This document shows positions 20,617-35,126 of a stretch of 64,000 bases of DNA, piece after piece; within the stretch, counting starts at the first letter, position 1; every line of letters starts with the position of its first letter. The stretch is from positions 248,001 through 312,000 of the forward strand of contig NZ_BSDC01000003.1 of assembly GCF_030268045.1 (NCBI RefSeq), given 5' to 3'. The stretch comes from Geothrix edaphica. GTDB lineage: Bacteria; Acidobacteriota; Holophagae; Holophagales; Holophagaceae. A program made the translations under genes and the position numbers. The notes under the pieces are model-generated. The model was not told the DNA's origin and did no database searches. It saw nothing but the letters and a program-made list of their open reading frames with translations.

Positions 20617-21201
<585 letters not shown>

Positions 21202-21203
21202 CC

Positions 21204-22631
<1,428 letters not shown>

Positions 22632-22679
22632 CGGGTCGCTCATCAGGCGACTGAATGTCGCCTGATGAGCGGGGACCCG
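22632..22679. terminator. Hairpin after accC
   Basis: A 14-bp perfect stem (22638-22651 with 22657-22670), loop TGAAT, and an extra 6-bp outer stem with a GGG bulge. No T-run follows, so termination is inferred from position only. Confidence 0.6.
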
Positions 22680-22727
22680 CCCGCGGATCCAGAGCAACCA
22701 GATCGGCCTCCCCCTTCCCCGGCATCA

Positions 22728-22756
22728 TTCAGGAATGCCGCAGAATCCGATAGACT
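22728..22756 (+). promoter_or_regulatory. Candidate sigma-70 promoter of tRNA-Thr
   Basis: TTCAGG at 22728-22733, 17-bp spacer, TAGACT at 22751-22756, ten bases before the mature 5' end of the tRNA. Confidence 0.6.
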
Positions 22757-22765
22757 GAATCTCGT

Positions 22766-22841
22766 GCCGCTATAGCTCAGTTGGTAGAGCGCCCGCCTTG
22801 TAAGCGGATGGTCGTTGGTTCAATTCCGACTAGCGGCTCCA
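22766..22841 (+). tRNA. tRNA-Thr (anticodon TGT)
   Basis: 76 nt including an encoded CCA end. Acceptor arms GCCGCTA and TAGCGGC pair fully. Anticodon loop CTTGTAA gives TGT. The first anticodon-stem pair is a C-A mismatch (22792-22808 region), while the other four are paired. T-loop TTCAATT is standard. Confidence 0.95.
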
Positions 22842-22881
22842 ATCCCGGGAGCCTCATGGACCACTCAGCCCAGCGCCGACC

Positions 22882-24483
22882 GTGAGCGACCCCACCCCCG
22901 CCCGCCCCAGCCTGCTCCGCTCCGCGGGGGTCGTGGGCTTCATGACCCTGCTGAGCCGGCTCACGGGCCTGCTCCAGACCTTCTTCCTCAGCCACGTGCT
23001 GGGCGCGGGGGCGGCGGCCGACGCCTATGCCGTCGCTTTCCGGCTGCCCAACATGCTGCGCCGGTTCACCGCCGAAGGCACCATGACCGCCGCCTTCCTG
23101 CCGACCCTGGCGGAGGCGGAGGCCACCGAGGGCCAGACCGCCGTGAAGGCCGTGGCGGCACGCTTCCTCGGCACCCTGCTGGCCCTGCTGTTGGCGGGGG
23201 TCGTCCTGGTGCTGCTGTTCATGGGGCCCCTGGCGGGACTGCTGATGATGGGGCGCCCGGAATCCCAGGGCGAGCTCACGACCCTGCTGGGCCGCATCAT
23301 GTTCCCCTACCTGGCCCTGGTGAGCCTCACGGCGGGCTTCACCGGCCTGCTCAACCTGCGCCACCGCTTCGCCCTGGCCGCCTCCGTCTCCGTGTTCTGG
23401 AACCTGGCCTTCATCGCCTTCGGGTGGACCGCGCTGCGGGTGCTGGAGCAGAAGGGGCGCCTCCCCCTCGAGACCGTGGCCGTGATCTGTGCCATCGCCG
23501 TCCTGGCGGGCGGCGTCCTCCAGCTCCTGGTGGTGCTGCCTGCGGTGCGGCAGGAGGGTTTCAGCCTCTCCTTCGGCCTGCACTTCCGGGATCCCTGGGT
23601 GGCGAAGGCCCTCAAGCGCATGGGTCCGGGCCTGCTGGCGGCGGGCATCTACCCCATCAACGCCCTCATCAGCGCCATGCTGGCCTCCCTGCTGCCCAAC
23701 GGCGCCCAGATGGTGCTCTACAACAGCGGAATGATGGGCGAGATGGTGCTCGGGCTCTTCGCCATGAGCCTCGCCACCGCCAGCCTGCCCACGCTCTCGC
23801 GTCAGGCGGGCGCCCAGGACTGGCCGGGGATGAACCGCAGCCTCACCCAGTCCATCTCCGCCTCGGCCCTGCTGGTGCTGCCGGCCTCCGTGGGGCTGGC
23901 CGTGCTGGCGCGGCCCATCTGCGCCCTGCTCTTCCGCACCGGCGCCTATACGCCCGCCGCCTCGGACTGGACGGCCCTCACCCTGGTGTTCCAGTCCGTG
24001 GGGCTGGTCTTCGTGGCGGCCCAGCGGCTGGGCAACCAGGCCCTCTACGCCCTCAAGGACTACCGCGGCCCTGCGGCCTTGGCCGGCGGCACCCTGCTGC
24101 TGAATGTGGCCCTCAGCCTCGCCCTGCTCAAGCCCCTGGGCACCGGCGGCCTGGCCCTGGCCAACGGCCTCGCCAGCCTCGCGGGCCTCATGGGCCTGCT
24201 GCTGCGCCTGCGCCCCCGCCTGCCGGGCCTGGACCTGCGCCCGCTCCTGAGCGCCACCGCCCGCGTCCTGGGGGCCTGCGCCCTCATGGGCGTGCTGGCC
24301 TGGGGCGGCGCCCGGTTCCTCGCCCTGGACGCACCCCACGCCTTCACCCGGGCCCTGCTCGCCTTCCGCCTGCTCCCCCTGGTGGCCCTGTGCGCGCTGG
24401 TCTACGGCGGGACCGCCGCGGGGCTCGGACATCCCGAAGCGAAGGCATTGGCCAAGAAGATCCAGCAGAAACTGCGGCTATAA
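22882..24483 (+). CDS. murJ: Lipid II flippase MurJ
   Basis: Flips lipid II across the inner membrane for peptidoglycan assembly; MOP superfamily, 533 residues, about 14 helices. Recognised from GFMTLLSRLTGLLQTFFLSHVLGAG at the start and the conserved FRLPNMLRRFTAEG segment (with the Arg implicated in cavity function), then INALISAMLASLLP. The GTG at 22882 lacks a clear ribosome-binding site; the start is therefore the least certain part. It lies 40 bp after tRNA-Thr and may be read through from that promoter. A 13-bp hairpin follows the stop. Confidence 0.95.
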   Translation: MSDPTPARPSLLRSAGVVGFMTLLSRLTGLLQTFFLSHVLGAGAAADAYAVAFRLPNMLRRFTAEGTMTAAFLPTLAEAEATEGQTAVKAVAARFLGTLLALLLAGVVLVLLFMGPLAGLLMMGRPESQGELTTLLGRIMFPYLALVSLTAGFTGLLNLRHRFALAASVSVFWNLAFIAFGWTALRVLEQKGRLPLETVAVICAIAVLAGGVLQLLVVLPAVRQEGFSLSFGLHFRDPWVAKALKRMGPGLLAAGIYPINALISAMLASLLPNGAQMVLYNSGMMGEMVLGLFAMSLATASLPTLSRQAGAQDWPGMNRSLTQSISASALLVLPASVGLAVLARPICALLFRTGAYTPAASDWTALTLVFQSVGLVFVAAQRLGNQALYALKDYRGPAALAGGTLLLNVALSLALLKPLGTGGLALANGLASLAGLMGLLLRLRPRLPGLDLRPLLSATARVLGACALMGVLAWGGARFLALDAPHAFTRALLAFRLLPLVALCALVYGGTAAGLGHPEAKALAKKIQQKLRL

Positions 24484-24485
24484 AC

Positions 24486-24514
24486 GGAAGGGCCGGGCAA
24501 AGCCCGGCCCTTCC
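24486..24514. terminator. Shared hairpin between murJ and the convergent S9 peptidase gene
   Basis: 13-bp perfect stem, 24486-24498 with 24502-24514, loop AAA. It begins 2 bp after the murJ stop and ends 16 bp before the S9 stop, so it could serve both strands. The TCC-rich tail lacks a T-run. Confidence 0.7.
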
Positions 24515-24530
24515 TCCCTGCGTCCAGTCT

Positions 24531-27248
24531 TCAGTTCTGCAGCTCCACCGTAACCACGGCGCCGCCCATCTGGGGGCCCGTCGCCACGGTCTTGAGCACC
24601 TTGCGGGAAGCCGTGTCCACCCACAGAGTCGTGGTCCCGGGATCGCCCTCGGCGGAAGTGAGCTCCACCTTCCAGGCCTTGAAGGTGCCTGCGGGGACTT
24701 TCAGCTCCTCCTGGCCCAGCACCTTGGCCTGCTTGAGCTGCACCTTCTGGCGCTGCAGGTCCACGTTGCGGAAGGTGACCGCATAGCCCTCCGCCAGGGG
24801 CAGGCAGGCCAGGGCATCCTCGGCACCGGAACCATCGGCGTAGATCCCACCGCCCAGGTCAATGCTGAAGGGCTTGGCGTTGCCGCCCATGGCCATGGTC
24901 CCGGTGGCCTTGCCGCCATCGAAGGCCATCTCGATGACCACGGGACCCTGCTTCACCTGGCGCTTCAGGGGCGCCAGCGTGTCCTTGGCCATGGTGGTGG
25001 TGTCCACCGCTTCGCCGCCAGGCAGCTTGGCGGTATCCGTCACCACCCAGGTGCCACCCTCCTCTTTCACCGTCCGGACCATGGAGATGGCCATGGAGCG
25101 GGGGCCCATGGCCATGGTTCCCGCGTAGGTGAAGGTGCCGGCCGTGGGCTTGGCCACGGGCTTGGGGACGCTCACGGACGCCGCGTCGGCCTTCTTCGCC
25201 AGCACCACGGTCTTGGGATCGACGGTGATCTCGGGCAGCCGCTTCATGACGTCGGGCTTGCCGCCCTCCTGATGGCGGGCCTTGAGGTACTTGGCCAGGA
25301 ACGTCTCCGCGGCCGCGAACATGGCCTGGTTGTTGACGGGACGGGCGAAGCCGTGGCCCTCGTCCGGCGCGCAGAGGTACTCCACCGGGAAGCCGCGATC
25401 GCGCAGGGCGATGACGATCTGGTCGCTCTCAGCCTTCTTCACACGGGGATCGTTGGCGCCCTGGATCACCATGAGCGGCGTGTGGATCTTCGCCGCGGAG
25501 TTCAGGGGCGACTGGCGCTCCAGCTGCTTCTTGCCCTCGGGCGTGTTGGGGTTGCCCATGCGCTCGTGGAAGATGATGCGGCCGGCTTCCCAGTAGGGGG
25601 GAATGGTCTCGAGCAGCGTCAGCAGGTTGGACGGTCCCACGATGGACACGGCGGCCGCGTAGAGGTCGGGCGTGAAGGTCACGCCTGCGAGGGTGGCGTA
25701 GCCGCCATAGGAGCCGCCCATGATGCCCACCCGCTTCGGGTCCACGATGCCCTTCGCCACCAGGTGCTTCACGCCCCAGGTGATGTCGTCCTGCATGAGG
25801 TCGCCCCACTGCTTGTTGCCCGCATTGAGGAACTTCTTCCCGTAGCCGGTGGAGCCGCGGAAATTGGGCTGCAGCACGGCGTAGCCACGGTTGGCCAGGA
25901 ACTGGGCCAGGCTGTTGAAGCCCCAGCCGTCCCGGGCCCAGGGACCGCCGTGGGGCACCACCACCAGGGGCAGGCTCTTGGCGGGCACGCCCTTGGGCAG
26001 GCTCAGGTAGGCGGGGATCTCCAGGCCATCGCTGGACTTGTACCGGATGGGCTGCATGGCGACCATGTGCTGCCGGGGCAGATCCTCCCGGGACACGTAT
26101 TCCAGGCTCAGCTTCTTGGTGCGGCGGTCGAAGAGGTAGCGGCTGCCCGGGTCGCGGTCGCTGTAGCTCGTGACCATCACCAGCTGCTCGTCGGCGGTCA
26201 TGGAGGCCAGGCCGATCTCCCCGCCCGGCAGCTTCTTCTGGATCAGCTTGTAGTCCGCCTCCCAGGCCTTGTCCTTCCAGTAGATCCTCGTGCGGTCGTC
26301 CTGATAGACGGTGGCGATGAGGTCATCGGTGAGGTCGGAGAAGATGGCGGAACCGAAGTCCACCCGGCCCTTGGGGTCGGATTCCAGCTTCGCCTCCTGG
26401 CCGGTGGCGGGGTCGAAGAGCACCAGCTCCGTGAGGTCCCGGGCGCCCTTGTTCGTCTCCAGGTAGACCCGCTTGCCATCCTTGTGGAAATTCACCGGCG
26501 CGGCGGACTCGAAGACCGAGCACTCGTAGACCTTGGTGAAGCCTTCGGGATCCACGCGGAGGATCTCGGTGTCGCCCTTTTCCGTGGTGCGGAGGGCGAG
26601 GCGCAGGTTCGCCTGCTTGTCGAACATCCAGCCGGCGATGCGCTCGGTGTTCTTCCGCAGCAGCGTCCGCTCGCCCGTGGAGATCTTCACCTTGTACACG
26701 TCATGCCAGGCGGCGTCCCGGTCGTTGAGGCCCACGTAGATCGTGTCGGGATCCGCCTTGGGCACGGCGTAGATCATGGCCCGGGCGCCCTTGGCGGCCG
26801 TCAGGTTGCGGGCCTCGGGCACGTCCTTGCCGGGCGCGGCGGGGGCCGCCGGATCCACGGCATAGACATTGAAGTTCTCGTCGCCGTCCTTGTCCTGCAC
26901 GAAGAGGATCTGCTTGCCGTCCCGGCTCCAGAAGAAGGCGGGGATGGGGCGCTTGGGATCCGCGGTGATCAGGTGCCCCTTGGCGTAGGGCTCGCCCACC
27001 TTCTTCACCCAGATGTTGCGAGTCTCCTTGTAGGGCTTGAGGAAGGCGATCCACTTCCCATCGGGGGAAAGCTGGGCCGCGGCGATCTCGGGATTGCCGA
27101 AGAACTTGTCCCGGTCGATGAGGGGCGGGAGCTGGCTCTTCTTCGCCTGGGCGGCCGGGGCCTTGGTTTCCGCGGCCGCCAGAGGCAGTGCCAGGGCCAA
27201 GGCCAAGCCAGACCACAGGAGGCTGGACATGGTCAGATGACGTTTCAT
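24531..27248 (-). CDS. S9 prolyl-oligopeptidase-family peptidase with extra C-terminal domain
   Basis: A 905-residue exported protein. Signal peptide at residues 1-26 (ending LAAAE), an eight-bladed-propeller-like N-terminal region with repeated SPDGKWI and SRDGKQI blade motifs, then the alpha/beta-hydrolase domain with Ser513 (GGSYGG), Asp600 (GANDPRV) and His632 (DEGHGF) as the triad. After about residue 665 comes a Lys/Pro linker and an additional region of about 230 residues, rich in beta strands, ending LPLAEGYAVTFRNVDLQ and LKVPAGTFKAWKVEL, which resembles DUF3108-type domains. Ordinary S9 proteins stop near residue 660. Start chosen with AAGGAG 9 nt upstream. Single gene, divergent from dtd. 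Confidence 0.9.
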   Translation of the reverse strand: MKRHLTMSSLLWSGLALALALPLAAAETKAPAAQAKKSQLPPLIDRDKFFGNPEIAAAQLSPDGKWIAFLKPYKETRNIWVKKVGEPYAKGHLITADPKRPIPAFFWSRDGKQILFVQDKDGDENFNVYAVDPAAPAAPGKDVPEARNLTAAKGARAMIYAVPKADPDTIYVGLNDRDAAWHDVYKVKISTGERTLLRKNTERIAGWMFDKQANLRLALRTTEKGDTEILRVDPEGFTKVYECSVFESAAPVNFHKDGKRVYLETNKGARDLTELVLFDPATGQEAKLESDPKGRVDFGSAIFSDLTDDLIATVYQDDRTRIYWKDKAWEADYKLIQKKLPGGEIGLASMTADEQLVMVTSYSDRDPGSRYLFDRRTKKLSLEYVSREDLPRQHMVAMQPIRYKSSDGLEIPAYLSLPKGVPAKSLPLVVVPHGGPWARDGWGFNSLAQFLANRGYAVLQPNFRGSTGYGKKFLNAGNKQWGDLMQDDITWGVKHLVAKGIVDPKRVGIMGGSYGGYATLAGVTFTPDLYAAAVSIVGPSNLLTLLETIPPYWEAGRIIFHERMGNPNTPEGKKQLERQSPLNSAAKIHTPLMVIQGANDPRVKKAESDQIVIALRDRGFPVEYLCAPDEGHGFARPVNNQAMFAAAETFLAKYLKARHQEGGKPDVMKRLPEITVDPKTVVLAKKADAASVSVPKPVAKPTAGTFTYAGTMAMGPRSMAISMVRTVKEEGGTWVVTDTAKLPGGEAVDTTTMAKDTLAPLKRQVKQGPVVIEMAFDGGKATGTMAMGGNAKPFSIDLGGGIYADGSGAEDALACLPLAEGYAVTFRNVDLQRQKVQLKQAKVLGQEELKVPAGTFKAWKVELTSAEGDPGTTTLWVDTASRKVLKTVATGPQMGGAVVTVELQN

Positions 27249-27369
27249 GGTCTGGGGCTCCTTGGAAAGAATGGATGAGGATCCCAGGTTACGCCGAAAG
27301 GGACATAGAGGTTGAGCATGAACCTCTGGAAGGTGCTCCCTTATGGCACAGTTCGGAGGGGGGCCTCCG

Positions 27370-27804
27370 ATGAAGGCAGTCATCCAGCGCGTGAAGCGGG
27401 CCTCGGTGCGGTGCGGGGAGCTGGAAGCCGCCATCGGGCCCGGCCTGCTCGTGCTGGCGGGCCTGGAGGTCGGGGATACGGAGGAGACCTGCGCCTGGGC
27501 CGCCGCCAAGATCGCCTCGCTGCGGGTCTTCGAGGATGGCGACGGAAAGCTGAACCTCGGCCTCCAGGAGGTGGGCGGGGAAATCCTGGCCATCAGCCAG
27601 TTCACCCTGGCCGGCAGCATCGCCCGGGGCCGGCGGCCCTCCTTCGATCAGGCCATGGCCCCCGACGCGGCCCGGGTCCTGTTCCGCCGGTTCCTCGACC
27701 TGCTGAAGGCCCAGTACCCCCGCGTGAAATCCGGTTTCTTCCAGGAGCACATGGAGGTCGAGTTGATCAACGACGGCCCGGTGACCTTCATCCTCGAGCG
27801 CTGA
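27370..27804 (+). CDS. dtd: D-aminoacyl-tRNA deacylase
   Basis: Removes D-amino acids (and Gly from tRNA-Ala) from tRNA. 144 residues. The start MKAVIQRVKRASV is the family signature start; the active-site segments SQFTLAG and DGPVTFILE are present. The ATG at 27370 gives the normal length; an upstream ATG at 27343 would add nine Gly-rich residues. GGAGG is 10 nt upstream. The stop overlaps the convergent PAP2 gene by 17 bp. Confidence 0.96.
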   Translation: MKAVIQRVKRASVRCGELEAAIGPGLLVLAGLEVGDTEETCAWAAAKIASLRVFEDGDGKLNLGLQEVGGEILAISQFTLAGSIARGRRPSFDQAMAPDAARVLFRRFLDLLKAQYPRVKSGFFQEHMEVELINDGPVTFILER

Positions 27805-28645
27805 GCCAGCGGGACAGCGGCGGTGCCAGCGCCATCCCCAGCCCCGCCAGCAGGAGGCCCGCGGCCACATCCGCCACGTAGTGGACGCCGATGTAGACGG
27901 TGGCGAACACGACGGCGGCGGCCCAGGCCCAGAGCAGCGGCGCCAGGCGGGGAAAGGGCCGCGTGGCCAGTATCGCGGGCAGCACGGACAGGGCGGTGTG
28001 CCCACTGGGGAAGGCATCCAGCGTGGTGGTTTCGGCGCCGTGGAGGAAGGCCCGGACCGCCTGGGAGACCGCGCCGCCGCCCAGCTGCGCAGCGGCCAGG
28101 GCCTCGGGCACCCGGGGCCCTTCCGCGGGCCACAGGAAGTAGCCCAGGAAGGACAGGTAGAACCCGAGGAGGATGGCGAACACCACCCGCTCGAAGAGCT
28201 CCGGCCCCCGCCGGACCCGCGCCAGCACGCCCACGGCGATGGGCAGCAGGTAGAAGCTCGCGTAGGCGAGGTAGACCAGATCCGTGACGGCCGCGGGCCG
28301 CCCGAAGGCGCCGTGCCAGGCCCGGGCGAGCGGGCCGAACCAGCGCCCATCGAAGGCGATCAGCGCCGCATCGCACCGGTGGGGGTTCACCGCCACCACC
28401 AGCGGCTGCAGGAGCAGGAACACGAGGAGCACCACCCCCACCGGGAGGAAGTCCCGCAGGAGCAGGAGCCCCTTCCCCCGGACCCGGCCCAGCCAAAGGA
28501 CCGCCAGGAGCAGCCCCGCGAAGACGGCGGCGCGCAGCGCCCAGCCTTCGGGCCGCGCCAGGAAGACGAGCGCCAGAAGCCCCGCCAGGACCAGCGCCGT
28601 CAGCCGCTCGGAGGGCCGCAGAGCCGCGATCGTCCCCCTGATCAT
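27788..28645 (-). CDS. PAP2-family membrane phosphatase
   Basis: A 285-residue protein with about six to seven helices. The phosphatase motifs are present near the C-terminus: FPSGHTALSV (catalytic His) and VYIGVHYVADVAAG (the His-Asp of the third motif); the first motif, around WPAEGPRVP, is weaker. This is the PAP2_3-like architecture of lipid phosphatases or phosphotransferases. The start overlaps the stop of the acyltransferase-like gene by 4 nt (ATGA), so both are translated together. A lipid-modification role is inferred from the coupling with an acyltransferase fold. The substrate is unknown. Confidence 0.82.
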   Translation of the reverse strand: MIRGTIAALRPSERLTALVLAGLLALVFLARPEGWALRAAVFAGLLLAVLWLGRVRGKGLLLLRDFLPVGVVLLVFLLLQPLVVAVNPHRCDAALIAFDGRWFGPLARAWHGAFGRPAAVTDLVYLAYASFYLLPIAVGVLARVRRGPELFERVVFAILLGFYLSFLGYFLWPAEGPRVPEALAAAQLGGGAVSQAVRAFLHGAETTTLDAFPSGHTALSVLPAILATRPFPRLAPLLWAWAAAVVFATVYIGVHYVADVAAGLLLAGLGMALAPPLSRWLSARG

Positions 28646-29520
28646 GATTCCCGCACGTCCGCCTCCACGCCCCGCCAGGCGGGCGTCCCCTCCGGCGGCC
28701 CCAGCCAGCGGCCCGGATTCTCCAGAATCTTCTGCACGAGCACCAGGGAGCGGGCGCAGGAGAAGGCATCGTCGATGCGCTCGTCGAAGGTCCAGCGCAC
28801 GGACAGGGCCTCCTCCACGGTCACGCCGTCCCGGGACGCGAAGGCGGCGCGCCGGGGGGAGGAGACCGCCCCGAAGATCGAGACCGTGCCGTATTCGTAG
28901 AGGTGGTGGTAGACATCGGACACGCCCACGGAACCGAGGTTGGCGAGGAAGATGCTCGCGTACATGGGATCGTCGCGGATCATGAAGCCCGGATAGAGGT
29001 TCCAGTGGTCCAGGCCTCGCGCCAGGGCCATCAGCAGGCGCACCAGGGGGCCGGGCAGCCGCATGACCAGGGCCACCTCCCGGTCCACAGCCCGCTCCGT
29101 CTCCCGCGCCTCGTCCACCTGGGTCGAGAGGCGCCGGGAGAAATCCTGGAAGCTCTCGCCCCCGACGGCCGCGAGCTTCACGGTGGCGTCCTCGCCCTCC
29201 TCCGTGAACTCCTTCTTGGCGACGAAGGAGAAGGACACACCGCGCCGCTGGTAGATCCGCCCCCCGGACACGAAGCGGTTCAGCCGCGGCCGGGCATCGA
29301 GGGTCACGGCCACGGCGTAGGCCACCAGGTGGAAGAGCGTGGCCCTGGGGTGGTGGGCGCGGTTGTAGGCCTTGAGCCACACCCGCGCAGCGGCCATGCG
29401 GTAGACGGATTCCTGGTAGACGCAGCTCTCGTTCCGGCCCCGCATGAGGTACGGCATGATGCGCCGCACCGGCGTCTCATCGCGGACCAGGTCGCCATCA
29501 GGACGGGAGAAGAGGGGCAT
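28642..29520 (-). CDS. Stand-alone E2/CAT-like acyltransferase-fold protein with altered active site
   Basis: A 292-residue protein resembling the catalytic domain of 2-oxo-acid dehydrogenase E2 and chloramphenicol acetyltransferase, without lipoyl or E1/E3-binding domains. LGSVGVSDVYHHLYEYGTVS and GVTVEEALSVRWTFDERIDD near residues 195-251 match the C-terminal region of those folds. The catalytic motif (D-H-R-x-x-D-G) reads D-E-R-I-D-D-A, at residues 246-252: His is replaced by Glu and Gly by Ala. Activity by the usual mechanism is therefore doubtful. The PAP2 gene is translationally coupled downstream. It is divergent from an outer-membrane barrel gene 113 bp away. Confidence 0.72.
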   Translation of the reverse strand: MPLFSRPDGDLVRDETPVRRIMPYLMRGRNESCVYQESVYRMAAARVWLKAYNRAHHPRATLFHLVAYAVAVTLDARPRLNRFVSGGRIYQRRGVSFSFVAKKEFTEEGEDATVKLAAVGGESFQDFSRRLSTQVDEARETERAVDREVALVMRLPGPLVRLLMALARGLDHWNLYPGFMIRDDPMYASIFLANLGSVGVSDVYHHLYEYGTVSIFGAVSSPRRAAFASRDGVTVEEALSVRWTFDERIDDAFSCARSLVLVQKILENPGRWLGPPEGTPAWRGVEADVRES

Positions 29521-29633
29521 GGACCAGGGTTGTCAGCTGGACCGGCGCTGTCAAGAACACCCGGATATCACCTTTTCGCATTGACACCCCTGGCCCGCAG
29601 GACTATCCCTGTGGCAATCCTTCCGGTGATGCC

Positions 29634-30386
29634 ATGACGACGCGCTCGGTCCGTCTCCAGCCATTCGCCTCCGGCCTGCTGGCCGCAGGCCTCCTCCTGG
29701 GGGGTGCCGCCGCCCGGGCCCAGGAGGTACCGAATCCCTGGACCATGACGGTCTATCTCCAGCAGAGCTGGCCCAAGCAGACGGAGACGAACCGCCAGAT
29801 CAAGGACATCAATGCCGCCCTGGGTTCGTCCTTCAAGACCTGGGACGACGTGGCGAACCTGAACCTCGGCCTCCAGGCCTACCGGGACCTGGACCCGCGC
29901 TGGAAGGTGGGCCTCGAGCTGGACTACTCCCGGGGGAAGATCGATGGCAAGGCCACGGTGGACACCCCCGCCGGCCCCGCCACCCTCGCCTTCGAGCAGA
30001 AGTACACGATCTACGCCGACCTCCTGGCCCTGGTCCAGTTCCGGCCCCTGGGGACGAGCCACCGCTGGACCCCCTTCCTCCAGGCGGGGCTCGGCCTGGC
30101 CTACGAGAAGGACCGGACCCTCCTGACCCTCCGCAACGACCTCCTCGACGAGACCCTGGTCCACGTGGACAACGACGGCTGGTTCCCCATGGCCACCGTC
30201 GGCGCTGGGGTGGATGTTTACTTCTCCGACCAGCGCACCTGGTACGCCGAGGCCGGCGTCAGCTACTCCTGGGCCCGCCTCAAGCACGATGTGCCGGCCA
30301 GCGGTTCCCTGGTCCCGCCCACGGTCACCGCCGACACCGATTCCACAGGACCCAACGTGTGGCTGGGCATCGGACGGCGGTTCTAG
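29634..30386 (+). CDS. Outer-membrane beta-barrel protein
   Basis: A 250-residue barrel with a signal peptide (residues 1-30, ending ARAQ) and alternating strands, ending GPNVWLGIGRRF with the terminal Phe used for barrel assembly. It resembles OmpW/OmpX-size eight-strand barrels, but I do not recognise a specific family. The second barrel gene starts 16 bp downstream with AGGAGG, so the two form an operon. Upstream is divergent from the acyltransferase-like gene. Confidence 0.75.
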   Translation: MTTRSVRLQPFASGLLAAGLLLGGAAARAQEVPNPWTMTVYLQQSWPKQTETNRQIKDINAALGSSFKTWDDVANLNLGLQAYRDLDPRWKVGLELDYSRGKIDGKATVDTPAGPATLAFEQKYTIYADLLALVQFRPLGTSHRWTPFLQAGLGLAYEKDRTLLTLRNDLLDETLVHVDNDGWFPMATVGAGVDVYFSDQRTWYAEAGVSYSWARLKHDVPASGSLVPPTVTADTDSTGPNVWLGIGRRF

Positions 30387-30402
30387 CTCGAGGAGGTGGC
30401 TG

Positions 30403-30942
30403 ATGGCCCGGCTCTCCCGCCTGCAGCCGGTGATGCTGCTCCTAGGGTCCGCCCTCCTCCAGGCGCAGGACTTCAGGGTGGGAGCGGGGGTGTTCCTCCT
30501 GGCCGATCAGGGCCAGGACTTCCAGGTCAGCTTCCGTCCAGCTTCGAGCCACTGGCAGTTCAGCTACCGCCACGTCCAGTGGCGGGACCACTTCAATGAT
30601 CCGTTCACCGGCCGCAGGCTGACGGAGACGACGGAGACGCGAACCGGCCCCCTCGTGGACTACCTCTTCAGCCCCCAGTCGCCGGGCAGCTGGTACCTCG
30701 GGGGCGCGGTGTTCCGCTGGTCCAAGCGGGAGGAATCCCTGCTGACCGGCGAGGTGGACCGGGTCACCACCACCGCGCCCTTCATCGGTGGGGGCTATAC
30801 CCGGACCCTGGGCCGGCACGTCTACTTCAACCTCGGCCTCTACCTCAGCCCCGGCACCCGGCTCTCCACCCGGACCAGCGTCAGCTCCGAGGACGACAGC
30901 GGCGCCTTCGACATCCAGATCCAGCTCGGGGCCCGGTTCTAG
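30403..30942 (+). CDS. Small outer-membrane beta-barrel protein
   Basis: A 179-residue protein with a signal peptide (residues 1-22, ending LLQAQ), strands with aromatic girdle residues and a C-terminal FDIQIQLGARF. Size fits an eight-strand barrel. AGGAGG lies 6 nt before the ATG. It is the second gene of the barrel pair. No named family is recognised. It ends 27 bp before the convergent esterase stop. Confidence 0.72.
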   Translation: MARLSRLQPVMLLLGSALLQAQDFRVGAGVFLLADQGQDFQVSFRPASSHWQFSYRHVQWRDHFNDPFTGRRLTETTETRTGPLVDYLFSPQSPGSWYLGGAVFRWSKREESLLTGEVDRVTTTAPFIGGGYTRTLGRHVYFNLGLYLSPGTRLSTRTSVSSEDDSGAFDIQIQLGARF

Positions 30943-30969
30943 CAGACTGATCCGATCGCGACGCCGCGA

Positions 30970-31665
30970 TCACGCCGCCCCGGAGAGCCCCCCGATCCAG
31001 GCCAGGACATCGGCCCGCATCTCGGGATTCAGGGTGTGGCCGGCGGGATAGACGCGGGTGACGTGGGGGATGCCCAGGTCATCCAGCAGACTGTCGGCCC
31101 GCTGGGCCCAGGCCAGGGGCAGGGTGCGATCCTGCTCGCCATGGCCGATGAAGCCGCGCAGGTGGGCGAGCCACTCGCGGCCGGCGACGCGGGGTTCGAG
31201 TTCCGGCAGGATGCGGCCCGAGAGGATGGCGAAGCCGCCCACGCGTTCGGGCGCGGTCAGGGCCACGCTGGCGCTCAGGATGCCGCCCTGGCTGAACCCG
31301 GCAAGGACCGTCCGCCGGGCTTCGATGCTGTACTGGGACTGCAGGTGGTCGACGAGGCGGATGAGCGCGTGGCGGCTGGCCTCGGCCTCATTTTCCTCGA
31401 TCTTCGGCCCCTCCGCCGTGAACGCCACGCGGAACCAGCCGAACTGCTGGGGACCGAGCTCAAGCCGGCTGCGGACGAGCACCACCAGGACACCCGGAGC
31501 CACGCCGGCCGCCAGCTCGGCCAGGTCTGTCTCCTGCCCGCCAACGCCGTGGAGAAGGACCACCAGCGCCCTGGGCTGGGTTGGGGGTGGCTGCATCACG
31601 CGGTAGGACAGGCCCGATGACGCGTCCTGCTGCAGGACGCCAGGGAATGGGGCCGGGGATGCCAT
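30970..31665 (-). CDS. Alpha/beta-hydrolase of carboxylesterase/phospholipase type
   Basis: A 231-residue serine hydrolase similar to YpfH-like carboxylesterases. The triad is complete: Ser125 (AGFSQGG), Asp179 (HGEQDRTLPL) and His210 (PAGHTLN), with the oxyanion-hole HGVGG at residue 39. The start at 31665 has GGAGG 6 nt upstream, better than 31701. It lies on the same strand as yceI, 95 bp downstream of it, so a shared transcript is possible. No signal peptide is seen. Confidence 0.87.
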   Translation of the reverse strand: MASPAPFPGVLQQDASSGLSYRVMQPPPTQPRALVVLLHGVGGQETDLAELAAGVAPGVLVVLVRSRLELGPQQFGWFRVAFTAEGPKIEENEAEASRHALIRLVDHLQSQYSIEARRTVLAGFSQGGILSASVALTAPERVGGFAILSGRILPELEPRVAGREWLAHLRGFIGHGEQDRTLPLAWAQRADSLLDDLGIPHVTRVYPAGHTLNPEMRADVLAWIGGLSGAA

Positions 31666-31760
31666 GGCAAGCCTCCAGGAAAGAAGGGCAGAAAGACCCA
31701 CCTCCAGCCGCTCCAGGGGAACGGCCGGAGGCGGATGGGTATGGCGTGATCGGAAGCGGC

Positions 31761-32354
31761 TTAATTCTTCGCGGCGGGGGCGACCTTGCCGGCCTCGGCG
31801 TTCAGGCTGACGGCCACGGTCTCGCCGATGACGCCGGGGAAGGTCTTGATGCCGAATTCGTTGCGGTTGAGGGTGAGGACGCCGTCGATGAAGCCCGCGA
31901 TCACGGTGCCGGGCGCCATGCCGGGCTGGGTCCCCGCGTTGGTGATGGGGAAGGTGATGCGCTTGGTCACGCCGTGCAGGGTGAAGTCGCCGGTGATCTC
32001 CAGCTTGCCCTTGGCCACTTCCTTCACGGCCGTGCTCTTGAAGGTGATGACGGGGAACTTGGCCACGTCGAAGAAGTCGGGGGACTTCAGGTGCTTGTCC
32101 CGGGCCTCGTTGTCGGTGGTGAGGCTGGTGGCGTCGATGGTGACGTCCACGCTGGACTTGCTCATGTCGGCGGTGTCCACCTTGATGAGCCCCTCGAACT
32201 TCGTGAAGCGGCCGCTGACCTTGGCCAGCAGGTGGCTGACCTTGAAGCTCACTTCGCTGTGGACGGGGTCGATCTTGTAGGTGTCCTCGCCGGCCAGGGC
32301 GGGCAGGGCCGCCAGGGCGAGGGACGCGAGCAGAGCACGGAAGGGGTGGCGCAT
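31761..32354 (-). CDS. YceI-family periplasmic protein
   Basis: A 197-residue protein with a signal peptide (residues 1-22, ending ALAGE) and the YceI lipocalin-like fold that binds polyisoprenoids: DTYKIDPVHSEVSFKVSHLLAKVSG, then SVDVTIDATSLTT, LKSPDFFDV, and GDFTLHGVTKRITFP. GGAGG is 4 nt before the ATG at 32354. Its upstream region holds a clear promoter overlapped by a palindrome. YceI proteins are often induced by acid, osmotic or oxidative conditions. Confidence 0.92.
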   Translation of the reverse strand: MRHPFRALLASLALAALPALAGEDTYKIDPVHSEVSFKVSHLLAKVSGRFTKFEGLIKVDTADMSKSSVDVTIDATSLTTDNEARDKHLKSPDFFDVAKFPVITFKSTAVKEVAKGKLEITGDFTLHGVTKRITFPITNAGTQPGMAPGTVIAGFIDGVLTLNRNEFGIKTFPGVIGETVAVSLNAEAGKVAPAAKN

Positions 32355-32391
32355 GGGACCTCCAGGGAATAGGTGTTTCACCATGTAATTC

Positions 32392-32422
32392 AGTCTAGGC
32401 TCTTCTTAGTGTGTTGCAACAC
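32392..32422 (-). promoter_or_regulatory. Promoter of yceI with overlapping 12-bp palindrome
   Basis: On the minus strand, TTGCAA (32419-32414), 16-bp spacer, TAGACT (32397-32392), putting the start about 30 nt before the ATG. The -35 lies inside the perfect palindrome GTGTTGCAACAC (32411-32422), a plausible operator. The surrounding 150 bp is far more A/T-rich than the rest of the window. Confidence 0.6.
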
Positions 32423-32502
32423 CTTTTTGGACTATTTTTGGCCGTTTCCATCTAACGCTGTTTATTCAGAACACATAAAAAATCAAGCACCGAACGCCGG
32501 GA

Positions 32503-34152
32503 TCAGCCTTCCCCCTTCACGCACAGGCAGGAGGTCTCCGCCTTCACCTCGGCGCGGGCCTGGGCCCGCTTGAGGGCGCCGGCGGCCCGGGCGGCTTCGG
32601 TCTTGCGGCCCTGGGCCTCCAGCGCCTTCTGCAGGCCGAGCAGGGACCAGTAGTTGGCGGGATAGGCCCTGAGATCCGCGCGATAGACGGCTTCGGCCTC
32701 CCTGGCCCGCTGGGCGGACAGCAGCACGGCCCCCAGCGCATGCCGCGCGGGGATGATGCAGGCGGGGGGCTCGTCGTACTTGAGGGCATCCTCCAGGCGG
32801 ACGGCCTCCGTCAGCTGCTGGATCGCCTCATCCACCCGCCCCTGGCCGAAGGCGATCTCGCCGGCAAGGAAGGCCCTGGAGACCTGCAGCACCTGGCGGG
32901 CGTTGTTGGAACCCCAGGTGTGGCTGTCGGGCACCTTGGGCAGTGCGGCCTCGAAGGCCGCCTGCTCCTTCAGGGCCTCCTCCCCCTTGCCGGTGGCGGC
33001 GAAGGCCGTGCCCCGCAGGGCATGCCAGCAGGCCTTGGCCAGCGGCAGCCGGGTGTCCGGCGCGGGCTCCGCCAGCAGCTCCTCCCACATCCCGAACCGC
33101 TTCAGCACGTCCCAGCGCCGGGTGGAGAAGGCCTCGGCAAAGGGCGCGTTCTCCACCACCCAGGCCAGGGGGAAGGCGCTCACCACGGCCTGGCTCTGGG
33201 CGAGGGCGACCTCCTTCCGGCCTTCCATGACCGCGGTGTAGGCCAGGAAATCCGCGTTGTGCACCATGTAGATCCCGTAGAAGCCGATCTCGGGCTGGCG
33301 GGCCCGGTAGCGGCCATCGGCCTCCATGGCCCGCTCGTTGGCCCGGGCCGCGCCGCTCCAGTCCCCGATGCGGGCATAGATGTGGCCCGGCATGTGGACC
33401 AGGTGGCCCGCATCGGGAGCCAGGCCGCGCAACCGGTCCGCCGCCGCCCTGCCCCGCTCGGGATGGGGAGAGCCTTCATAGGCGTGGGTGGTGAGGTGGA
33501 GGGCCAGCGGGTGGTTCGGGGCCAGGGCCAGGGCCCGGCGGAGGGAGGCGAGAATCTCCTTCGTGCCGGGCTGGGGCTCGCCGGCCCGGGTCCACTGGTC
33601 CCAGGGCCGGACATCCATCAGGGCCTCGGCGTAGAGCGCGGCCACGTCCGCATCCTTGGGGAAGCGGCCCGCCACCTCGCCCATGGCCTGGGCGTAGGCC
33701 GCGTCCAGGGCCTTCCGATCCGCGGGGTTGGGCAGCGCGTAGCGTGCACCGAGAGCGGCGATGAGGGCCTGCTCCACCGGGCTGGCGGAAGCGGCACGTT
33801 GCTGCGCGGCCCCGAGCGCCTCCCAGGCGGCCTTGGCCTGGGCCTCGTCCATGACGGGGTTGTTGATGTGGGGACCATTCACCAGGGCCAGGCCCCACCA
33901 GGCCATGGCGGAGGAGGGGTCCAGGCGGATCGCCTCATGGAAGGCCCGCGCGGCAGCCTCATGGTTGAAGGCGTAGGCCCAGATGAGCCCCTGGTCGAAG
34001 GCCGCCTGGGCCGCGGGAACCCGGGTGGAGATGCGCCGGTGGTGGGTGCCGAGGTCGAACGGCCTCCAGGGGGCCGCCTCCGCCGGGCCCGCGGGGGGTG
34101 CTCCCGCGAGCAGCGTGCAGGCGACAGCGAGCAGCGGGGAAAGGAGGCCCAT
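32503..34152 (-). CDS. Exported TPR-repeat protein
   Basis: A 549-residue protein with a signal peptide (residues about 1-24) and tetratricopeptide-like helical repeats, for example AAARAFHEAIRLDPSSAMAW near residue 70 and the C-terminal REAEAVYRADLRAYPANYWSL. The N-terminal segment HHRRISTRVPAAQAAFDQGLIWAYAFNHEAA and AWWGLALVNGPHIN match a family of exported TPR proteins of unknown function. It ends with a Cys-rich SCLCVKGEG. GAGGTGA precedes the start. Single gene; divergent from the DUF155 gene. Confidence 0.75.
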   Translation of the reverse strand: MGLLSPLLAVACTLLAGAPPAGPAEAAPWRPFDLGTHHRRISTRVPAAQAAFDQGLIWAYAFNHEAAARAFHEAIRLDPSSAMAWWGLALVNGPHINNPVMDEAQAKAAWEALGAAQQRAASASPVEQALIAALGARYALPNPADRKALDAAYAQAMGEVAGRFPKDADVAALYAEALMDVRPWDQWTRAGEPQPGTKEILASLRRALALAPNHPLALHLTTHAYEGSPHPERGRAAADRLRGLAPDAGHLVHMPGHIYARIGDWSGAARANERAMEADGRYRARQPEIGFYGIYMVHNADFLAYTAVMEGRKEVALAQSQAVVSAFPLAWVVENAPFAEAFSTRRWDVLKRFGMWEELLAEPAPDTRLPLAKACWHALRGTAFAATGKGEEALKEQAAFEAALPKVPDSHTWGSNNARQVLQVSRAFLAGEIAFGQGRVDEAIQQLTEAVRLEDALKYDEPPACIIPARHALGAVLLSAQRAREAEAVYRADLRAYPANYWSLLGLQKALEAQGRKTEAARAAGALKRAQARAEVKAETSCLCVKGEG

Positions 34153-34274
34153 GGGTCACCTCTTGGAGATGTCGGATCCGACTCTACTCCTCTGAGTCGA
34201 TAAAATGAATTGGAGTCTCAAATGCATTAAATTGCATGACCCCTGATGGAGCGCGGGTTCTCACGGGAGCTACA
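34153..34274. other. Divergent intergenic region, A/T-rich
   Basis: 122 bp between the TPR protein and the DUF155 protein. It includes the inverted repeat ATGCA-n6-TGCAT around 34222-34237. No clear promoter can be assigned on either strand. Confidence 0.4.
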
Positions 34275-35126
34275 TTGGAGGCCATGGATCCGGGCCGCCT
34301 GGCGCCTCCGCCCCCCCTCCGGCCCCTGGACGGGACCGCCACCGAGCTGTTCCTCCGGGCCGAATACTTCCTGGGCCAGATCGACTTCCGGGCCTTCTGC
34401 GCCCGTCATCCCCACTACCGGGTGCTGTCCACCAATCCCCTGGTGCTCGAACCCGAGGCCGGGGCCTGGGTCTACCTTTCGCGGTTCGGGGCCGTGGTGT
34501 TCTGGAATGCCCCTCCGGCGGTCGTGGAAGCGGTGCTCCACGATCTGGAGGACCTCCCGGGAACGGGCGCCCGGGCCGAGGGCGCCCGGGACGACCTGCG
34601 GGTCCACCTGCGCGCCGAGACGGATCGCGTGGACTTCTCCGAAGTCTGGCTGCGCGACCTCACCCTGGACAAGCTGAAGATCATCTCCCTGGCTCTGGCG
34701 CAGAGCGTCGCGCTGGATGAGGTGGAGGGGGAGGTGAGCCTGGCCATGGCCCGCTTCGGCCCCGTGGTGACGGCGCTGCGCGATGAGGGGCGGCTGTTGT
34801 TCGGGCAGAAGGATCTGCTGCGGACGGTGGGTTTCGCCATGGCGGTGCGGGCGGCGGTGCTGGACACCCTCACCCTCTTCGACGATCCGCCGGAGACCTG
34901 GGAGAGCGAGGCCCTGGCCCACCTCGACGGCGCCCTCTTCGATCAGTTCGACCTGGAGGAGCGGCTGTCCGCCGTGAACCAGAAGGTGGCCTACCTCCAG
35001 GATGCCGGCGCCACGGTGCTGGACGTGCTGGCCCACCGCAAGGACCAGCGGCTGGAGTGGATCATCATCATCCTCATCCTGGTGGAGGTGGTCCTGTTCA
35101 TCTGGAAGGAGTTCCCTCTGAAGTGA
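34275..35126 (+). CDS. DUF155 (RMD1/RMND1-type) family protein with C-terminal membrane helix
   Basis: A 283-residue protein with a soluble N-terminal domain (VYLSRFGAVVFWN, then the acidic SLALAQSVALDEVEGEV segment), a helical region and a C-terminal membrane helix (WIIIILILVEVVLFIW) followed by KEF, the layout of DUF155 proteins. Mitochondrial relatives (RMND1) support translation at the membrane; the bacterial function is unknown. Start choice: TTG 34275 has GGGAG 5 nt upstream; ATG 34284 has GGAGG only 2 nt away; ATG 34236 has no ribosome-binding site. Confidence 0.8.
   Translation: MEAMDPGRLAPPPPLRPLDGTATELFLRAEYFLGQIDFRAFCARHPHYRVLSTNPLVLEPEAGAWVYLSRFGAVVFWNAPPAVVEAVLHDLEDLPGTGARAEGARDDLRVHLRAETDRVDFSEVWLRDLTLDKLKIISLALAQSVALDEVEGEVSLAMARFGPVVTALRDEGRLLFGQKDLLRTVGFAMAVRAAVLDTLTLFDDPPETWESEALAHLDGALFDQFDLEERLSAVNQKVAYLQDAGATVLDVLAHRKDQRLEWIIIILILVEVVLFIWKEFPLK

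Follow-up and report, generated by a model that had tools for sequence, protein, structure and literature searches.

A candidate rebuilt active site in an E2/CAT-fold protein whose gene overlaps that of a PAP2 membrane enzyme in Geothrix

The locus described here lies in a 64,000-nucleotide stretch of the Geothrix edaphica genome (the window, by which we mean the whole stretch analysed) and is built around two genes on the minus strand. One of these (28642-29520, minus) encodes a 292-aa protein, referred to here as E2L, which by its ORF, its Pfam match and its predicted fold is placed in a DER subfamily of the E2/CAT-fold family PF00198. The other (27788-28645, minus) encodes a 285-aa PAP2_3 membrane phosphatase or phosphotransferase (ORF and PF14378). 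The TGA stop codon of E2L and the ATG start codon of the PAP2 gene share the four nucleotides ATGA (28642-28645, minus), an overlap that the original prediction had reported and that recurs at all 17 named loci carrying the pair. E2L residues 188-273 match PF00198 (2-oxoacid dehydrogenase acyltransferase) at 33.7 bits (cut-off, 23). This is the sole match above cut-off, and neither a lipoyl nor a peripheral-subunit-binding domain was found by Pfam or NCBIfam within the 292 aa. The PAP2 protein matches PF14378 at 76.6 bits (cut-off, 27); for neither protein did an NCBIfam model reach its cut-off. A genome search found E2L to be single-copy in its own 3.16-Mb genome. The nearest named record for the locus is that of Geothrix oryzisoli SG189, whose E2L is 93% identical, and a comparison with the G. 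oryzisoli gene (dN, 0.032; dS, 0.251) indicates that E2L is under purifying selection. On one side of the pair, the PAP2 gene meets a D-aminoacyl-tRNA deacylase gene (27370-27804, plus) tail to tail, with their 3′ ends overlapping by 17 nt (27788-27804). On the other side, two small genes (29634-30942) are divergent from E2L, the first of which (29634-30386, plus) encodes an outer-membrane beta-barrel-like protein according to Pfam and neighbour comparison.

Ordinary E2/CAT trimers build each active site from two subunits, one of which gives the catalytic histidine (of the DHR motif) and the other a serine or threonine. In E2L, residues 246-252 read DERIDDA (codons for D246-E247-R248-I-D-D251-A252, 28765-28785, minus) in the place where sequence and alignment set DHRxxDG; this replacement had been described exactly in the original prediction. 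Ala193 (codon 28942-28944, minus) corresponds to the active-site Ser/Thr of E2 enzymes, an assignment made from alignments and from the matching residue context of Escherichia coli E2o, in which a primer table puts Thr323 just before the Asn-Gly-Gly of the corresponding strand (PMC5986005). Further along lie the codons for H205-H206-L-Y-E-Y-G211 (28888-28908, minus), whose His pair is invariant in DER sequences, the DHR sisters having Pro206. No E1 or E3 gene was found among the 11 other genes scanned (20617-35123). E2L is therefore not an E2 subunit, having neither the catalytic His nor the facing Ser/Thr, and neither a lipoyl domain nor E1/E3 neighbours. Naming it by PF00198 alone would mislead, because DER proteins match only this general E2 domain model.

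Structure prediction, one of the checks originally proposed, gives the E2L monomer an E2/CAT fold. The model, made from 92 sequences, has a pLDDT of 93.5 and a pTM of 0.90; the stretch 201-210, which holds the His pair, rose from a mean pLDDT of 42 with 12 sequences to 91 with 92. Its best fold match is the E2 core 3l60 (Z, 21.7; rmsd, 2.4; 204 residues aligned), with CAT-type matches ranking after the E2 cores (Z, 17.4 to 17.6). The best 50 matches of each list are E2/CAT relatives or 2-oxoglutarate dehydrogenases that carry an E2-like domain, and they include the core model of E3BP (6h60; Z, 20.4).

The DER motif is not a local oddity. We collected E2L relatives from close genomes, genome contigs and whole-genome profile searches, and after ORFs shorter than 150 aa and identical aligned rows were dropped, 236 rows became 146, of which 144 are readable in the alignment. 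Aligned to the A3 profile, 122 of the 146 unique rows combine Ala193, His205-His206 and Glu247, and one (from Vescimonas) combines Thr193 with His-His and Glu247. The reciprocal combination, Thr/Ser193 with Ala-Pro or Val-Pro at 205-206 and His247, is found in 20 rows (the DHR sisters); these are only the nearest such rows. The profiles that yielded the larger relative sets had been made from DER members. The remaining three rows, a fragment (L047) and a protein split in two (L020), stand outside this count. Both groups retain D246, R248 and D251. Within the 122 DER rows, residue conservation, another check originally proposed, leaves Glu247 invariant (122/122), Asp251 present in 120 and position 209 occupied by Glu in 116 and Asp in 6; position 252 is Gly in 99 and Ala in 23, so that Ala252 of the window is a local detail. 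F83, K102, E148, P177, F191, L195, E209, G211 and F216 are likewise fixed in DER proteins and different in DHR proteins. In alignment A4 (92 sequences, <80% identity; rows >80% identical or short were left out), nine residues never vary, namely R6, D184, A193, H205, H206, G211, F216, E247 and R248; D246 and D251 are conserved to at least 90%. Loci added later read HHL and DER in 23 of 23 cases (3 of the 23 being repeats). By sequence, then, E2L is a member of a distinct and widespread DER subfamily of the E2/CAT fold.

A phylogeny of 99 proteins, computed with the motif columns removed and without rows that were short or >72% (DER) or >90% (DHR) identical, puts the DER proteins on one side of one branch (SH-aLRT, 100). 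In this sample E247 and the His-His pair each change once on the tree; residue 193 changes five times among A, T and S. The reciprocal swap is thus one old event that has been kept since, and its reciprocity does not amount to a series of independent observations. In one acidobacteriotal protein (L020, 1501-2379, about 24% identical) a lone His (FHLPTHMG) is combined with DTR, which puts Thr at 247; it possibly represents a half-changed active site. We rejected the idea of a half-changed lineage, since the alignment of this protein is split in two and a relative of it (L256, 34% identical) reads DHK without the His pair, which is the ordinary state.

DER proteins were found in Myxococcota (where they are common), Acidobacteriota, Gemmatimonadota, Actinomycetota and one Clostridia record, the phylum names of the genome sets being approximate. 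The Myxococcota set gives profile matches at E <= 1e-15 in 170 of its 282 genomes (DER and DHR mixed), and the same threshold is passed in 15 of 297 acidobacteriotal genomes and in 10 of 296 genomes of the actinobacterial set (2 DER and 8 DHR); about 120 of the 282 Myxococcota genomes score below 1e-70, and all of those inspected are DER. In the Gemmatimonadota set, 3 of 220 genomes match at E <= 1e-40. A contig scan contributed 27 loci, which are biased to DER because the scan pattern contained it. The clostridial copy, from Vescimonas fastidiosa, has DER and HHHCYEFG (27% identical by tblastn; hhalign E, 3e-34); it lies on an 861-kb plasmid (L184, 4998-5831), where it is annotated as a hypothetical protein, and a search of plasmids for further Clostridia relatives returned none but Vescimonas itself. 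A literature search (open PMC, titles and abstract starts) found nothing on the DER/His-His motifs, the E2L family or the E2L-PAP2 pair.

Where the His pair would sit can be judged from alignment and from published structures. A profile alignment to 1b5s (E, 1.3e-6) sets DER on DHR and pairs His205-His206 with a Thr-Pro of E2p, on the strand next after the active-site position. In published structures, the E2 active site is placed at the subunit interface, with H603′ and D607′ from one subunit and S551 from the other (PMC8421416); Ser566 faces His620′, 54 residues apart (PMC9681731); and CAT residues 12, 14 and 16 after the catalytic Ser line the docked-substrate pocket (PMC12549896). The spacing from A193 to E247 is likewise 54, and H205 lies 12 residues after A193. 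Taken with the alignment, these structures lead us to infer that residues 205-206 lie on a strand lining the inter-subunit pocket, where the His pair would be opposite Glu247 of the neighbouring subunit, E2L presumably being a trimer as its relatives are. The original prediction had called the protein a pseudo-acyltransferase and had asked whether homologues hold a histidine elsewhere in the pocket. As far as sequence goes they do, in the form of His205-His206, its place in the pocket being drawn from alignment and literature. The E2/CAT fold with a non-standard active site stands; the "pseudo" part does not hold up well, given a His pair that is invariant just where His247 is missing, and a simple pseudo-acyltransferase is weakened to the same extent.

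The reading that we favour, at roughly even chances, is that E2L is a rebuilt E2/CAT active site with a relocated catalytic His, likely an acyl-transfer or acyl-hydrolysis enzyme, which in Geothrix probably shares a lipid pathway with the PAP2_3 protein. In the DER subfamily Glu247 stands in place of His and Ala193 in place of Ser/Thr, and the strand after Ala193 has gained His205-His206. According to this proposal, either His205 or His206 would reach into the shared inter-subunit pocket and, together with Glu247 and Asp251 of the neighbour, could supply the catalytic group, be it a base or a hydrogen-bond donor. The product would be an acyl-transfer or acyl-hydrolysis enzyme and no dead relative, and an acyltransferase function is one that E2L may have retained. 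In Geothrix and a few other lineages, E2L and the PAP2_3 enzyme would act in the same lipid or lipid-phosphate pathway.

An unlikely alternative, though the next most probable, is that E2L is a catalytically dead E2/CAT scaffold or regulator that binds and controls a partner (here the PAP2 enzyme), E3BP/protein X being a case of an E2-like fold in a non-catalytic role. The loss of both Ser/Thr193 and His247 in 122/122 rows would fit such a role, as would the apparent lack of a lipoyl domain, the presence of an E3BP core among the best 50 fold matches and the overlap of the E2L and PAP2 genes, an arrangement in keeping with 1:1 partners. A pocket without function would be expected to drift, however, and yet H205, H206, E247 and R248 are invariant, and D251 very nearly so, across phyla; moreover, a PAP2 neighbour of this kind is missing from most loci outside Geothrix.

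The conservation of the pocket can also be read as the sign of new chemistry, in which His205, His206 and Glu209, together with Glu247′ and Asp251′, bind a metal or an anionic substrate, making E2L a hydrolase or some other non-acyltransferase. The invariance of His-His and Glu247, the restriction of position 209 to Glu or Asp and the near-invariance of Asp251 are all in keeping with this, and the swap is concerted rather than a single change. Against it, no metal-site relative appears among the best 50 fold matches per list, although this proves little; to our knowledge the DER/His-His motif resembles no known metal site. We regard this reading as improbable, and somewhat more so than the dead scaffold.

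No less doubtful than a metal site is the idea that E2L is an ordinary E2/CAT acyltransferase that tolerates Glu for His, with Asp246 and other residues stabilising the intermediate and the His pair being structural. Here the published data cut both ways. D-H-R is stated to be conserved in all E2 sequences (PMC8421416). Work on E. coli E2o (PMC5986005) reports that His375Trp keeps 59% of activity with an unchanged pH profile, that His375Gly keeps 13% and that Thr323Ala keeps 45%. Its authors regard His375 as a hydrogen-bond donor and not as an acid-base catalyst. Because E2o tolerates these changes, losing His and Ser/Thr is not in itself fatal to the fold and need not call for a substitute; by the same data, a relocated His may work through hydrogen bonds rather than as a base (PMC5986005). 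On the other side, His375Ala, His375Cys and His375Asn keep only 2.1%, 1.0% and 0.5%, and the same report names only Trp and Gly as recovered in a saturation screen at this position (PMC5986005). Plain tolerance also leaves unexplained why His205-His206 occurs in rows without His247, and why Glu alone is found at 247 (122/122). A relocated catalytic His thus ranks first, a dead scaffold second, and metal-type chemistry and plain tolerance share the last place.

The pairing with PAP2 is close within the genus. Across 60 genomes, own genome included, E2L (E < 1e-100) and PAP2 (E < 1e-80) occur in the identical 14, all of them from the window's genus; G027 and G057 each have a weaker PAP2 match, G057 also has a weak E2L match, and several genomes lacking the pair are incomplete. 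The pair is also present in Geothrix fermentans DSM 14018 (L026). PAP2 adjoins E2L in 16 of 16 genus genomes with E2L (the 14 and 2 more). The PAP2 motifs PSGH and HYxxD are kept in all 18 aligned copies. The ATGA-type overlap is present at all 17 named loci with the pair, even where identity falls to 61% (E2L) and 52% (PAP2), for which reason it cannot be put down to chance. One of these loci is from a MAG titled Myxococcales (L030), and another is from an Acidobacteria MAG that belongs to a different family (L037; E2L, 61%; PAP2, 52%). At locus L293, which comes from the order of the L030 genome, a PAP2 relative with 50% identity across 181 aa and intact PSGH and HYVVD precedes E2L with a 4-nt gap, so that the pair is present in reversed order. 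Within the loci fetched for E2L, many of them redundant, every relative of the PAP2 protein directly adjoins E2L on the same strand; two loci fetched with PAP2 as the query (L182 and L183, 31% identity) hold PAP2 relatives without an adjoining E2L. Six Geothrix genomes without the pair have the D-aminoacyl-tRNA deacylase gene, with an S9 peptidase nearby in 4, DinB in 2 and MurJ in 2, a pattern suggesting that the pair is gained and lost as one block.

Outside Geothrix the picture is sparser. By tblastn with the PAP2 protein, a PAP2 neighbour is present at 3 of 65 distinct E2L loci (L030, L037 and L293), a count made on 41 + 12 + 14 loci minus two duplicates (L306 = L030 and L147 = L046); it takes in loci absent from our first neighbour table (e.g., L114, L116, L119, L120, L123, L126 and L146), and some of the loci end at contig edges (L031, from the same family, is on a contig of 5,990 bases). 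The synteny with PAP2 for which a check had been proposed is therefore kept in Geothrix, with all of its overlaps, and is mostly missing in other relatives. No common partner gene emerges among 56 operon-like same-strand neighbours either; the commonest families (best 25 of 65) reach 4/56 (DnaJ and GNAT, from one related locus group), and PAP2_3 reaches 2/56. In that Myxococcota group (L133, L138, L139 and L144), E2L is closely flanked by a GNAT acetyltransferase gene on one side and a DnaJ-family gene on the other. In near Myxococcota copies without PAP2 (L295 to L297), the gene that comes next, at most about 10 nt after E2L, encodes a lipoprotein-like protein of 297-298 aa; the L294 version of this gene is 158 nt from E2L and encodes CIPCH, a cytochrome c type motif. 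A sphingolipid link, through a PLP enzyme beside an Actinomycetota copy (L046, the same locus as L147), was considered and dropped; the enzyme is a Pfam Aminotran_1_2 protein, a family seen in 1 of the 56 neighbours. The beta-barrel-like gene adjoins E2L at all 15 named loci with the pair in Holophagaceae, even at those where most other neighbours differ. We rejected it as a part of the E2L-PAP2 unit, as it is lineage-specific and was not found at L030, L037, L038 or L031.

Whether the two genes are neighbours by mere accident in one clade, without functional meaning, is a separate question that we judged independently of the active-site readings. The 3/65 count is what such an accident would give, near Myxococcota copies (L294 to L297, 59-61% identity) lack PAP2, and gain or loss of a block would equally produce matching presence and absence. 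Nevertheless, the overlap survives at identities as low as 52-61% although the surrounding genes vary, and the pair is found with its gene order reversed in L293; we therefore consider an accident rather unlikely. The PAP2 link is real but local to a lineage. The "small lipid-modifying unit" of the original prediction survives as an overlapping, co-inherited pair that includes a PAP2 membrane enzyme, and a lipid-modifying role for that pair is plausible for the Geothrix lineage only.

The fullest form of the proposal, in which the catalytic His has moved across the pocket (Glu on the donor subunit, His-His on the facing strand), E2L is a working enzyme and the two genes form a lipid-phosphate unit in Geothrix and a few lineages, is put forward tentatively, at somewhat less than even chances. 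If it is true, then a textbook fold with a supposedly fixed catalytic residue has a branch that rebuilds the site from the opposite subunit, showing how catalytic residues can migrate across an interface. The residue pattern names the positions to mutate, and the Geothrix lineage adds a partner gene.

With regard to known systems, the PAP2 protein is a clear member of the PAP2_3 family (PF14378), with PSGH and HYxxD kept, and differs from it in that its gene is overlapped by that of E2L and that no NCBIfam model matches it at cut-off. E2L itself shares its predicted fold and the D-x-R-x-x-D frame with the E2 domains of 2-oxoacid dehydrogenases (PF00198; the E2p, E2o and E2b cores). Unlike these, it has Glu for His at DHR, Ala for the facing Ser/Thr and a gained His-His pair, and it comes with no detectable lipoyl or subunit-binding domain and no E1/E3 gene among the 11 scanned. 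In its stand-alone, single-domain size, E2L resembles the CAT protein 2i9d (Z, 17.6; 206 residues aligned) and the Bacteroides O-acetyltransferase 9xc8 (Z, 17.4; 207 aligned), the matches to which start at model residue 7-8, those to E2 cores starting at residue 24-32. Unlike CAT, it has DERIDDA in place of HHxxxDG and Ala at the place of the catalytic Ser. E3BP/protein X, a non-catalytic protein with an E2-like fold that forms part of the pyruvate dehydrogenase core, offers a third comparison: like E3BP, E2L has an E2 fold without the canonical catalytic role, but unlike E3BP it stands alone, and its replaced residues are strictly conserved.
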